DNA of 64,000 nt from Pseudomonas mendocina (GTDB lineage: Bacteria; Pseudomonadota; Gammaproteobacteria; Pseudomonadales; Pseudomonadaceae). Positions 57,765 to 64,000 of the stretch are shown here, one piece after another. The stretch spans positions 3,658,001 through 3,722,000 of the forward strand of contig CP148074.1 of assembly GCA_037482215.1 (NCBI GenBank). Direction: 5' to 3'. Made by a program: the position numbers and the translations under genes. The notes beneath the pieces are model-generated. The model had not been told where the DNA came from and made no database searches. It worked only from the letters and a program-made list of their open reading frames with translations. How positions within the stretch are numbered: the stretch's first letter is position 1; every line of letters begins with the position of its first letter.

Positions 57765-58685
57765 TCAACGCTTAAAGAAGCGATAAAACGCTCGCAGGTC
57801 AGCCTGAGCTTGTTCCGGGCTGACCCGAGCGAAGCGCATCTCGTGATGCGCCGGGCACTGAGCGAGCCGGTTTAAATCCAGTGGATGCACCCACCCCAAC
57901 ACCGGATAACCGCCCATGGTCTGATGATCCGCCTGCAAAATAATCGGCAGACCATCCGGCGGCACCTGAATAACACCACGGCCAACACCTGCCGACCACT
58001 GCCGCTTAGGCGCCTCAATAGGCTGCCCTAACAGGCGCGCGCCCATGCGATCCGACTGCGGGCTGAGTTGCCAGCCTTGAGAGAAAAACTGCTCGACCTG
58101 CTCCGGCGCAAAATCCGCAGCATCCATCCCCAGCATCACTCGCAGCTGCGCTGGAGCTCGATAGTCTGGGCGATAAGCTGAGGGCACCGAGACTCTGCCA
58201 CTCAGTTCGGCGACGGTACAAGGCAGTAAATCCCCGCTTTGCAAAGCCAGCCCAGCACCTGAAAGCCCGCCCAGCCCTTCCCGCCGGTGCACGCTGATAC
58301 TGCCCAGCACCGGCATAACCTGAAAACCACCGGCGACTGCCAGATAAGCGCGCTGCCCGGTTCTGGCAAAGCCCAAGCGCAAACGCTGCCCACGTCTCAC
58401 AGGAAAGCGGCTCCACATCAGCTGCAACTGATCATCTAAATACACATCCAGCTCAGCGCCAGTCAGGCTGATCCAGGTGTCTACTTCCGCCTCAAGCTCA
58501 AGGCCGCCTAAAGCAATTTCCAGCAGCGGTGTACCCCACTGATTGGCCAGCAGGCGATTGGCCCATGCTGCCGCATGTATATCCATTGCCCCGCCCGGAG
58601 ACACCCCCAGATGTTGCCAGCCGGAACGCCCTGCGTCCTGAAGCAGGCTCTGCGCGCCAGATTTGATCACCCGTAGCCCGCTCAC
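57765..58685 (-). CDS. pxpC: 5-oxoprolinase subunit C (KipA/AHS2)
   Basis: Biotin-dependent-carboxylase-like subunit of the bacterial 5-oxoprolinase that opens pyroglutamate with ATP. The 306 residues show LRVIKSGAQSLLQDAGRSGW, QHLGVSPGGAMDIHAAAWAN, SDRMGARLLGQPIEAP and the C-terminal GGYPVLGWVHPLDLNRLAQC of the AHS2 family. It overlaps pxpB by 4 bp. The three Pxp genes in this order are typical. Confidence 0.92.
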   Translation of the reverse strand: MSGLRVIKSGAQSLLQDAGRSGWQHLGVSPGGAMDIHAAAWANRLLANQWGTPLLEIALGGLELEAEVDTWISLTGAELDVYLDDQLQLMWSRFPVRRGQRLRLGFARTGQRAYLAVAGGFQVMPVLGSISVHRREGLGGLSGAGLALQSGDLLPCTVAELSGRVSVPSAYRPDYRAPAQLRVMLGMDAADFAPEQVEQFFSQGWQLSPQSDRMGARLLGQPIEAPKRQWSAGVGRGVIQVPPDGLPIILQADHQTMGGYPVLGWVHPLDLNRLAQCPAHHEMRFARVSPEQAQADLRAFYRFFKR

Positions 58686-59359
58686 AACTTACCGCCTTCA
58701 CGGATAAAGGTGCTCTCATCAATCGGCAGAAAACGCACCTGATCGCCTAGCGCCAGCGGGCAAGGTGGTGTTTGTGTCACATCGAACAGCGCCCACGGAC
58801 AGCACCCCAGCAGATGCCAGCCACCTGGAGAGCGTTGTGGATAAATTGCCGTCTGCCGTTCAGCAATTGCCAGGCTACCAGCCGGTACAGACAACCTCGG
58901 TGTACTGCGACGCGGTAGCGCCAGCCGCGCATCCAGCGTGCCGAGGTAAGCAAAGCCCGGTGCAAAACCAATGGCGCCCACGTTGTACAACGGCTGGCTG
59001 TGTAGGCTGACGACCTGCTCTGTCGTGAGCTGACACAACCGCGCCACTTCATGCAGGTCTTCGCCGTTATAAAAAATCGGGATTTCATGCACGCGGGCGT
59101 GATAGCTGGCCAAAGGCTCAACTCGCCAACGCTCAATAATCGGCTGCAACAAAAGACTGAGCTGATGGTGATCCGTACGCATCAAATCGTAGTGCAATAG
59201 CAGGCTTGTCCAACCCGCCACCATATCGGTCAGCAGCGCTCCCAGCTCACCTTTGATGCGGTCAGCCAGGCGGGCAATGCGCAGCGGCAATTGCTCATCC
59301 GGCTGCTCAGCCAACACCAACAACAGCGCTTCGGCACCTGCTGGTTCAATGCGTATCAC
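58682..59359 (-). CDS. pxpB: 5-oxoprolinase subunit B (KipI/AHS1)
   Basis: AHS1/KipI-type subunit. The 225 residues contain HEIPIFYNGEDLHEVARLCQ, NVGAIGFAPGFAYLGTLDAR, RRSTPRLSVPAGSLAIAERQ and TAIYPQRSPGGWHLLGCCPW. KipI in Bacillus inhibits kinase KinA, but in this operon context the enzyme role is far more likely. It overlaps pxpC and pxpA by 4 bp each. Confidence 0.92.
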   Translation of the reverse strand: MIRIEPAGAEALLLVLAEQPDEQLPLRIARLADRIKGELGALLTDMVAGWTSLLLHYDLMRTDHHQLSLLLQPIIERWRVEPLASYHARVHEIPIFYNGEDLHEVARLCQLTTEQVVSLHSQPLYNVGAIGFAPGFAYLGTLDARLALPRRSTPRLSVPAGSLAIAERQTAIYPQRSPGGWHLLGCCPWALFDVTQTPPCPLALGDQVRFLPIDESTFIREGGKL

Positions 59360-60099
59360 AGGCTGTCCAAACTAGCCCGCAAACGCCGCAACACCGCCAG
59401 CGATTCGGCATTGTCGCCGTGCACGCAGAGGCTATCAGCATGCAATTGCAGTGGATTCCCGTTGATATCAACAAAAGGAGCGCCCTGAGCAATGAGCAAG
59501 GCCTGCTCCAGTATGCGCTGCGAGTCTTTATGCACTGCACCTTCCAGACGTCGTGGCGCAAGCTGGCCGTCAGGTAAATACGCGCGATCAGCAAACGCTT
59601 CGAACAACAAAGGCACGCCTGCGGCCTCAGCCAGTTGCTGCTCACGCCGGTTATCCGCCAGCGCCAGCACCATTAAAGGCAGCCCTTGGCGAAAGGCTCT
59701 GCAAGCCGCCAGCACAGCATTGAACAGCGCATCATCCCGTACCAAATCGTTGTACAGAGCACCATGCGGCTTGACGTAAGCCACCTGAGTACCTGCGGCC
59801 TTACAAAAGGCCTCAAGCGCGCCTAATTGGTAAAGCACCAGCGCGGTGACTTCTTCAGGTGAGCAACTGATGTGGCGACGGCCAAAGCCCTGGAGGTCGG
59901 GATAAGCCGGGTGGGCGCCGATGCTAGCCCCATGCTTCACGGCTAGGGCCACCGAACGCTGCATGGTCAGCGGGTCACCCGCGTGATAGCCACAAGCCAG
60001 ATTAGCCTGATCCACCAGTGGCATCGCCAGGGCGTCATCGCCCATTTTCCATGCGCCGAAGCTTTCGCCCATGTCGCAATTGAGAAGGATCTTTTTCAT
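59356..60099 (-). CDS. pxpA: 5-oxoprolinase subunit A (LamB/YcsF)
   Basis: LamB/YcsF-family subunit. The 247 residues start MKKILLNCDMGESFGAWKMG and contain NLACGYHAGDPLTMQRSVAL, IGAHPAYPDLQGFGRRHI and AYVKPHGALYNDLVRD, which define the family. The ATG at 60097-60099 fits better than an earlier in-frame start that adds 24 unrelated residues. First gene of pxpABC; about 250 bp separate it from the divergent TonB receptor gene. Confidence 0.93.
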   Translation of the reverse strand: MKKILLNCDMGESFGAWKMGDDALAMPLVDQANLACGYHAGDPLTMQRSVALAVKHGASIGAHPAYPDLQGFGRRHISCSPEEVTALVLYQLGALEAFCKAAGTQVAYVKPHGALYNDLVRDDALFNAVLAACRAFRQGLPLMVLALADNRREQQLAEAAGVPLLFEAFADRAYLPDGQLAPRRLEGAVHKDSQRILEQALLIAQGAPFVDINGNPLQLHADSLCVHGDNAESLAVLRRLRASLDSL

Positions 60100-60282
60100 G
60101 TCGGCATGCTTAAACAAGTGGCCGCCTAGTGCAAGTGATCCGTCAGCTAAAAACGCTCTACGACTTGCCAACGCGATACAGAAACATTCACTTACACTTT
60201 GCCGTTTTGTTTCAAACCCTTACCGGACTTGCGTTCCACAACTTTCACCTTGCATCAACGTTCACACTCGCCCCATTCATCA

Positions 60283-60310
60283 TTGATCATCATTTGCGAA
60301 CAATTATCAT
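60283..60310 (+). promoter_or_regulatory. Candidate Fur-regulated promoter of the TonB receptor
   Basis: TTGATC (60283-60288) and TATCAT (60305-60310) are 16 bp apart. The same stretch carries Fur-like half-sites: TGATCAT at 60284-60290 and ATTATCA at 60303-60309, compared with TGATAAT/ATTATCA in the consensus. So iron repression of the receptor is likely but the match is imperfect. The transcription start would be near 60317. A related decamer ATTTGCGAAC occurs here (60292) and again upstream of the PepSY gene (62641). Confidence 0.45.
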
Positions 60311-60352
60311 GAACCAATACAAAACTTACACAGATGCAAGAGCCAACCATTC

Positions 60353-62575: not shown

Positions 62576-62596
62576 CCTGAACGATCAGCCCTCCCA

Positions 62597-62630
62597 CAAC
62601 CCGGCCAGCTTCTGGCCGGGTTGTTTGTTT
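62597..62630 (+). terminator. Terminator after the TonB receptor gene
   Basis: Perfect 12-bp stem CAACCCGGCCAG/CTGGCCGGGTTG with a 3-nt loop (62597-62623), followed by TTTGTTT. It makes the PepSY-DUF2271-DUF4198 genes a separate transcription unit or a read-through one. A TATAGA at 62692 could be the -10 of the next promoter, but no good -35 is present. Confidence 0.88.
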
Positions 62631-62729
62631 CAGGGTGAAAATTTGCGAACGTATAGTATTTGTAAATTAATCCCAATTAGACCGTGCAACTTATAGAATC
62701 ACGTCCTTGTTTTAGCTGCTGGATTCATC

Positions 62730-63338: not shown

Positions 63339-63848
63339 ATGCGTAAATGCCTGCTTCCCTTACTCGTGGCGCTGTCCACTCCAGCACTGGCTGCTGAAGT
63401 GGATCTGTCCGTCGAAATCCCGCAACTGGACGTCGCCGAATACCATCGCCCTTACGTCGCCATCTGGCTGGAGCGCCCAGACCAGAGCCACGTCGCCAAC
63501 CTGGCCGTGTGGTACGACGGCAAAATGGCTGATCGCGAAGGCGAGAAATGGCTGAAGGACTTGCGCCAATGGTGGCGCCGCAGCGGTCGCGCACTGGAAA
63601 TGCCGGTAGATGGCGTCAGTGGTGCAACTCGCAAAGTCGGCACCCACAGCCTCAGCCTCAGCGATAAAGACCCAGCCTTCAAAGACCTGCCCGCCGGTGA
63701 ATACCGCGTTGTAGTAGAAGCCGTGCGCGAAGTTGGTGGCCGAGAACTGCTGCGCGTACCGTTCCAGTGGCCGGTAGATAAAGCTGCAAGCAACAGCGCG
63801 AAAGGCTCAAGCGAGCTGGGCGCAATTGAACTGACACTCAAACCTTAA
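63339..63848 (+). CDS. DUF2271 protein with ApbE-type flavinylation motif
   Basis: Secreted 169-aa protein with signal peptide MRKCLLPLLVALSTPALA and a DUF2271 domain (YHRPYVAIWLERPDQSHVAN, LAVWYDGKMADREGEKWLKD). Residues 91-97 read DGVSGAT, the D-x-x-S/T-G-A-T motif in which ApbE attaches FMN to the final Thr (here T97). DUF2271 has been proposed as an ApbE-flavinylated domain. The ApbE enzyme itself is not in this window. It lies between the PepSY and DUF4198 genes and may carry electrons in the periplasm. Confidence 0.85.
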   Translation: MRKCLLPLLVALSTPALAAEVDLSVEIPQLDVAEYHRPYVAIWLERPDQSHVANLAVWYDGKMADREGEKWLKDLRQWWRRSGRALEMPVDGVSGATRKVGTHSLSLSDKDPAFKDLPAGEYRVVVEAVREVGGRELLRVPFQWPVDKAASNSAKGSSELGAIELTLKP

Positions 63849-63863
63849 CCTGAGGACACTGCC

Positions 63864-64000
63864 ATGAATCCACTTCTCAAATGGACAGCCCTGACCCTGG
63901 CCGTATGCTTGCCGCTGACTGCCAATGCTCACCGCGCCTGGATGCTGCCTTCCGCCACCGTGCTCTCCGGTGACGACGCTTGGGTCACTGTTGACGCAGC
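63864..64000 (+). CDS. DUF4198 periplasmic protein (partial, 3' end off the window)
   Basis: The first 45 codons are present. They encode a signal peptide (LKWTALTLAVCLPLTANA) and then HRAWMLPSATVLSGDDAWVT, the start of a DUF4198-type domain. The ATG is preceded by TGAGGA and lies 15 bp after the DUF2271 gene. DUF4198 proteins often accompany metal-uptake genes; the function is unknown. The rest of the gene, and any ApbE gene beyond it, lie outside the window. Confidence 0.8.
   Translation, partial: MNPLLKWTALTLAVCLPLTANAHRAWMLPSATVLSGDDAWVTVDA

Follow-up and report, generated by a model that had tools for sequence, protein, structure and literature searches.

The last part of a 64,000-nucleotide stretch of the Pseudomonas mendocina genome (hereafter the window) contains a PepSY/DUF2271/DUF4198 operon that continues into a diflavin reductase gene just beyond its edge, and in which we found no apbE gene. 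We consider it probable that this operon moves electrons from cytosolic NAD(P)H across the inner membrane and reduces ferric iron or a ferric siderophore in the periplasm, with the DUF2271 protein being flavinylated in trans by an ApbE encoded next to nqrF. In the chain that we infer, the diflavin reductase would draw electrons from NAD(P)H (NADPH in the most likely form of the chain), PepSY would pass them along haems liganded by conserved histidines, a covalent FMN on Thr97 of DUF2271 would serve as the periplasmic relay, and periplasmic ferric iron (or a ferric siderophore) would be reduced at the end. DUF4198 would have a role in metal binding or hand-over, and FMN would be put on DUF2271 by the only ApbE of the genome, whose gene follows nqrF, in a lineage whose operon carries no apbE.

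The three protein families named in the initial annotation were all matched by Pfam, and DUF2271 indeed lies between PepSY and DUF4198 (Table 1). The DUF4198 portion inside the window gave only a partial Pfam match, below the cut-off, and the full match was obtained once the gene was read beyond position 64,000. The initial annotation had also read these genes as an electron-transferring module; the domains, the motif and the module stand, and the diflavin reductase gene, which lies beyond the window and was not in its view, has to be added to them. The PepSY, DUF2271, DUF4198 and diflavin genes follow each other with gaps of 9, 15 and 20 bases.

Table 1. Features of the operon and its upstream region. 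Positions are those of the window unless a locus (L002) is given.
Feature	Position	Strand	Evidence
Fur-box-like site upstream of receptor	60296..60314	-	13/19 matches to a Fur consensus
TonB-dependent outer-membrane receptor, 740 aa	60353..62575	+	Pfam plug 1.2e-27, barrel 2.5e-60
Hairpin resembling an intrinsic terminator, in the receptor-PepSY interval (13 pairs, 9 GC, loop 3)	62596..62624	+	hairpin scan
Element of 23 bp before the PepSY gene, conserved among relatives	62645..62667	+	sequence GCGAAYGTATNNTNTTTGTAAAT
PepSY_TM_like_2 membrane protein, 199 aa	62730..63329	+	PF16357 E 4e-87; PF03929 2.9e-10
DUF2271 secreted protein, 169 aa	63339..63848	+	PF10029 E 7.8e-52, over cut-off
D91-G-V-S-G-A-T97 codons, predicted ApbE site	63609..63629	+	sequence; residue numbers agreed in alignment
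Acceptor Thr97 codon, predicted ApbE site	63627-63629	+	sequence and alignment
DUF4198 secreted protein, runs past window edge	63864..64000	+	full 291 aa at L002:5864-6739, PF10670 E 4.6e-55
Diflavin reductase gene, first after DUF4198, outside window	L002:6760-8328	+	Flavodoxin_1 1.3e-25, NAD_binding_1 3.3e-8

Examination of 248 genomes of the family revealed DUF2271 in 106 (105 of them over the cut-off) and ApbE in 220. We compared 112 DUF2271 proteins from 111 loci in 102 of these 106 genomes; the four genomes left out were G066, G085, G074 (weak match) and G002 (sub-cut-off match), with ApbE present in the first three and absent from G002. Type A, to which the window belongs, spans 78 genomes, with 79 loci that encode 80 DUF2271 proteins. 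PepSY was found in 78/79 of these loci, DUF4198 in 75/79 and the diflavin gene in 73/79. The six loci in which the diflavin gene went undetected, one of which is a contig end, were counted against the proposed chain. ApbE was not found in any of the 79 type A loci, 30 of which are 3.4 kb long. Type B comprises 32 short DUF2271 proteins in 32 loci (L082-L113), with ApbE nearby in 24 of these loci and a motif ending in G-A-S in all 32 proteins. In 30/32 type B loci the DUF2271 gene adjoins a frame of about 750 aa that matches the diflavin protein; Pfam scans of three such frames showed PepSY_TM, flavodoxin and NAD domains joined in a single protein. This fusion supports the notion that a separate diflavin protein acts as the electron donor of PepSY in type A loci.

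In the window's own operon the diflavin protein, whose best solved-structure matches are the flavoproteins of sulfite reductase and cytochrome P450 reductase, has a hydrophobic N-terminus (by eye). It is CysJ-like and probably membrane-anchored, and it is likely to be the cytosolic electron donor of the chain. An alignment of 114 PepSY sequences shows four histidines, His14, His37, His138 and His199 at the C-terminus, conserved at 99-100%, as expected of candidate haem ligands. Searches of the PDB with PepSY, by sequence and by profile, matched no solved relative, FoxB included.

Upstream of the operon, the initial annotation had described a TonB receptor with a Fur-like promoter. The receptor is there, and its best NCBIfam models, NF010012 (TonB-dependent receptor) and NF050067 (CfrA ferric enterobactin receptor), although both below the cut-off, suggest that it is most like the siderophore receptors. 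The Fur-like site before it, in contrast, is weak when taken singly, since its score was reached in 63 of 1000 shuffles of the upstream region and, among 3000 pieces of 250 bp drawn at random from the window, in 59 (all box scores count matches to a Fur consensus). Fur-like matches are nevertheless enriched before the receptors as a group, occurring in 17/32 loci as compared to 67/1920 control segments. A Fur box before PepSY was also considered and rejected as too weak, with a best match of only 9/19 in the window and 8/67 reaching at least 13 in the group, versus 133/4020 controls. The weak site at the receptor and the lack of one before PepSY were both counted against the proposed chain.

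The receptor is possibly its own transcription unit, since the terminator-like hairpin lies between it and PepSY. Our scan retrieved 6 terminator-like sites versus a mean of 4.6 in shuffles, so that stem length alone, the longest of the six, favours this hairpin. Between the hairpin and PepSY lies the conserved 23-bp element (GCGAAYGTATNNTNTTTGTAAAT), which was found, allowing up to 2 mismatches, in one copy in each of 6 genomes searched (control 0); this single copy per genome makes it look specific to the operon rather than regulon-wide. At the flanks we noted, by eye, three adjoining minus-strand frames resembling the 5-oxoprolinase subunits PxpC, PxpB and PxpA (window positions 57765-60171), and beyond the window a lone NuoA-like frame (L002:8719-9132) between the diflavin gene and a permease-like frame on the opposite strand.

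The mature form of the DUF4198 protein is expected to start with a histidine: His23 stands after a signal-like stretch, and a histidine after the expected cleavage site was found by pattern in 130 of 131 DUF4198 ORFs, a set that includes 7 re-fetched copies. Two further histidines, His56 and His197, are conserved at 96-97% in 111 sequences. A DUF4198 protein from Ideonella (PMC12537917, 2025), whose crystal structure shows Ni bound via the N-terminal His with His18 as the second ligand, has a Kd of 18 nM for Ni and favours nickel in vitro, a preference that counts against iron as the substrate of the proposed chain. It is conceivable, then, that the same chain reduces or delivers nickel, cobalt or copper, with DUF4198 as a nickel carrier and the receptor importing that metal complex, and another PepSY_TM protein, CrpH, has been reported to support copper enzymes (PMC13038864). 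We regard this as unlikely, however, given that the window receptor resembles siderophore receptors and that relatives of the operon respond to iron: Fur regulates the Caulobacter crescentus operon CC_3059-3063 (CCNA_03155-03159), whose expression rises when iron is limiting (PMC3751524), and DUF2271 and DUF4198 genes of Alteromonas are also induced by iron limitation (PMC7190382). In favour of the proposed chain, transposon mutants of the Caulobacter operon are less fit in EDTA (PMC11870441, a preprint). A further point against another metal is that the DUF4198 profile did not match the nickel-binding structure in the PDB set, pointing either to a distant subfamily or to the absence of that entry from the set; a PDB search by sequence likewise yielded no useful relative and no alignment to 9GCB. 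The same profile matched PDB entries 9mhi and 9mhk (E about 1e-7), labelled phosphoribosylglycinamide formyltransferase, a label that appears doubtful.

The DUF2271 protein begins with a signal-like stretch (judged by eye only) and carries D-G-V-S-G-A-T at residues 91-97, exactly as the initial annotation had placed it, with S-G-A-T at 94-97 fitting the [S/T]GA[S/T] acceptor pattern. In an alignment of the window's family the Asp, G92, the Ala and the final Thr of this motif occupy the same columns in 80/80 type A proteins, and the motif is therefore no chance occurrence. A PDB search with the protein sequence found no useful relative. Flavinylation of a DUF2271 protein was demonstrated by co-expression with its ApbE, and replacing the Thr by Ala abolished it (PMC8238504, eLife 2021), so that the statement in the initial annotation that no biochemical proof was known is outdated for this step. 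By analogy, Thr97 would be the residue that carries FMN in the window protein.

The motif Gly within S-G-A-T, on the other hand, is not fixed. Of the 80 type A proteins, 51 have Gly at this position, 24 have Ala and 5 have Ser, with at least 12 state changes on a poorly resolved tree; the full [S/T]GA[S/T] pattern is thus kept in 51/80, while the acceptor Thr is present in all 80. These 29 departures were counted against the proposed chain. Loss of the motif in homologs had been named in advance as a sign against the site, and what we found is divided, as Asp, Ala and Thr hold while Gly does not. We accordingly dropped a strict D-x-x-S-G-A-T scan as a test of homologs, since Gly is variable and the other three residues are constant. 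In another target protein, changing Gly to Ala left flavinylation at about 50%, whereas changing Thr to Ala abolished it (PMC12052999); the drift would therefore be expected to weaken the DUF2271 site rather than abolish it. That Asp, Ala and the acceptor Thr remain in 80/80 proteins while Gly drifts further indicates that the site is not in free decay.

This conservation bears on another idea, in which PepSY acts as a permease for siderophores or DUF2271 serves as a structural partner, FMN matters little or not at all in this subfamily, and the site is decaying. The authors of the Alteromonas study did predict PepSY_TM proteins to be siderophore permeases (PMC7190382), and the drift of the motif Gly in 29/80 proteins would fit a decaying site. 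Yet the near-invariance of the four PepSY histidines, the constancy of Asp, Ala and the acceptor Thr despite the drift, and the presence of a diflavin reductase gene in 73/79 loci make this explanation very unlikely. It is likewise very unlikely that a flavinylated DUF2271 serves a respiratory or repair acceptor rather than metal uptake: flavinylated carriers are known to have many acceptors (PMC8238504), but the adjoining TonB receptor, with its group-level enrichment of Fur sites, and the published iron regulation of the Caulobacter and Alteromonas relatives argue against it.

When loci were divided by the presence of a nearby apbE, Pro occupied the motif Ala position in 13/31 loci with a local ApbE versus 0/94 without, and Ala occupied the motif Gly position in 24/94 loci without a local ApbE versus 0/31 with one. 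These counts omit five loci: in L162, L163, L165 and L166 a single frame covers both ApbE and DUF2271, and L177 is a long frame that gave no ApbE match. We do not claim that motif drift is coupled to a local ApbE, as the pair test is powerless with local status changing 3 times on the tree. Several loci had unusual architectures. L163, L165 and L166 appear to be ApbE-DUF2271 fusions in a single reading frame, with the site altered to RPT or GPT. At L076:7295-9372 two DUF2271 genes flank DUF4198; the site reads SAAT in one of them and SGAT in the other, and no diflavin gene was found there. Reduced loci (L078, L079, L080, and L217 of Azotobacter chroococcum) contain PepSY and DUF2271 only, or DUF2271 alone (L080), with DGVSGAT intact.

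The ApbE gene that the initial annotation proposed to look for beyond position 64,000 does exist in the genome (a single contig of 4.76 Mb), but 1.96 Mb away from the operon. This sole ApbE (C1:1759032-1759874, E 1.0e-84) stands directly after a frame that we read as nqrF, part of a respiratory sodium pump, and before one read as sthA; the nqr and sthA names are our own reading of the frames, with NqrB alone confirmed by Pfam. NqrB carries DGFAGAT and NqrC carries DGLAGAT in this genome. Out of the 77 type A genomes besides the window's, 20 were checked for this gene order, and ApbE directly follows NqrF in 19 of them. In other families apbE sits within the operon itself, between the DUF4198 and diflavin genes (e.g., L182), and across 44 named loci ApbE was found nearby in 29 (Solimonas, Dyella, Chiayiivirga and others). 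The named loci without a nearby ApbE, some of which are cut by contig ends, include both of the Pseudomonas loci (2) and all five from Alteromonas. The nearest named relative, Pseudomonas sp. TTU2014-080ASC, has a DUF2271 protein 93% identical to that of the window and the same five genes, with no ApbE in the locus.

Genomes with DUF2271 nearly always encode an ApbE somewhere. ApbE was found in 101/102 of the sampled DUF2271 genomes in the family, the exception being a genome that is 75% complete (G211). In a phylum sample of 398 genomes, DUF2271 over the cut-off occurred in 65, all of which had ApbE, versus 226/333 of the others (Fisher 2.5e-10, a value that ignores kinship). Five more genomes in this sample had a sub-cut-off DUF2271 match, and among them G278 was without ApbE. 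Since ApbE is common even among genomes without DUF2271 over the cut-off, the co-occurrence is partly background.

The one exception among the 20 genomes checked for gene order, the 99% complete G010, is informative on a supply in trans. Here a GAPDH-like gene is followed by apbE and then sthA; all three lie on a single contig that contains no N, with no nqr genes between them (L053, L198). The ApbE of G010 is intact and the only one in the genome, and is 58% identical to the window ApbE over 341 residues. We found no match in this genome to the NqrB/RnfD family, FMN_bind or DUF3570, while the PepSY, DUF2271, DUF4198 and diflavin genes are all present, the site reads DGVSGAT, and no same-strand receptor precedes PepSY. 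Among the four families searched (NqrB/RnfD, FMN_bind, DUF3570 and DUF2271), DUF2271 is therefore the only ApbE substrate in G010. A pattern search of its DNA for D-x-x-[S/T]-G-A-T gave 15 matches versus 25 for the reversed pattern, and G010 may have further substrates. ApbE without FMN_bind occurs in four genomes of the family (G010, G167, G190 and G220), three of which have DUF2271. The fourth, G167, has an ApbE with no match to FMN_bind, DUF2271 or DUF3570; persistence of ApbE thus needs no DUF2271, and the ApbE of G167 must serve another substrate. G211, with DUF2271 and no ApbE match, and G167, with the reverse, were both counted against the proposed chain, as was the fact that the support from G010 comes from one genome.

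These results suggest that the nqrF-linked ApbE flavinylates DUF2271 in trans, and that apbE was lost from the operon rather than never having been there. There is precedent for an ApbE with a further client, as the ApbE of P. stutzeri flavinylates NosR (PMC12052999). We are evenly divided on a broader evolutionary scenario, in which the Pseudomonadaceae operon gave up its own apbE and came to rely on the ApbE of the sodium pump, the shared transferase could outlive the pump, as in G010, and the repeated Gly to Ala or Ser changes represent natural tuning of a substrate of a shared enzyme.

The operon lends itself to testing whether a covalent flavin reduces iron in the periplasm, and the whole route of the electrons from NAD(P)H to that compartment is predicted. 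Because ApbE is encoded far away, the genetic test would be clean, as apbE can be deleted with the operon left intact; G010 provides a setting free of recognised NQR, RNF or FMN_bind substrates. On the practical side, searches with a strict [S/T]GA[S/T] pattern would overlook 29 of the 80 type A proteins. Flavinylation of DUF2271 by ApbE and the proposal of iron reduction by PepSY/DUF2271/DUF4198 clusters are already known from the published work cited here. New here are the absence of apbE from the operon, together with a transferase that is probably shared, the case of G010, and a motif whose Gly is allowed to drift. In the material covered from the literature on PepSY/DUF2271/DUF4198 systems and from an ApbE review we found no description of an apbE-less, nqr-supplied version, which is not proof of its absence. 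The operon is a known kind of system, probably for iron uptake, with a rearranged flavinylation supply.

Several described systems resemble the one studied here. Clusters with PepSY (PF16357), DUF2271, DUF4198 and a TonB receptor were reported by Meheust et al. 2021 (PMC8238504), who proposed the module for iron reduction; an apbE-less version supplied from nqr and the drift of the motif Gly are not singled out in the parts of that paper considered here. The DUF2271 protein of Amantichitinum ursilacus shares the [S/T]GA[S/T] site with the window protein and is flavinylated by ApbE, with the Thr being essential (PMC8238504), but it is served by a cognate ApbE, whereas the window operon has no cognate apbE. 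FoxB of Pseudomonas aeruginosa (PDB 7ABW according to PMC11334425) belongs to the PepSY family and has His-ligated haems and a function in ferrisiderophore reduction; the window PepSY is, in comparison, a PF16357 protein of 199 aa whose four histidines are only candidate haem ligands. The type B loci have the same domains and the same presumed electron order as the window, and differ by the fused reductase, the site ending in Ser and the frequent local ApbE (24/32). The closest known system is CC_3059-3063 of Caulobacter crescentus, with PepSY-like, DUF2271, DUF4198, ApbE and sulfite-reductase-flavoprotein genes (PMC3751524; the identity of PepSY from PMC11870441). Genes and order are the same as in the window except for apbE, with the diflavin reductase last in both; in the P. 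mendocina operon, unlike that of Caulobacter, there is no apbE, the sole ApbE is encoded at the nqr locus, and a TonB receptor gene stands directly upstream.
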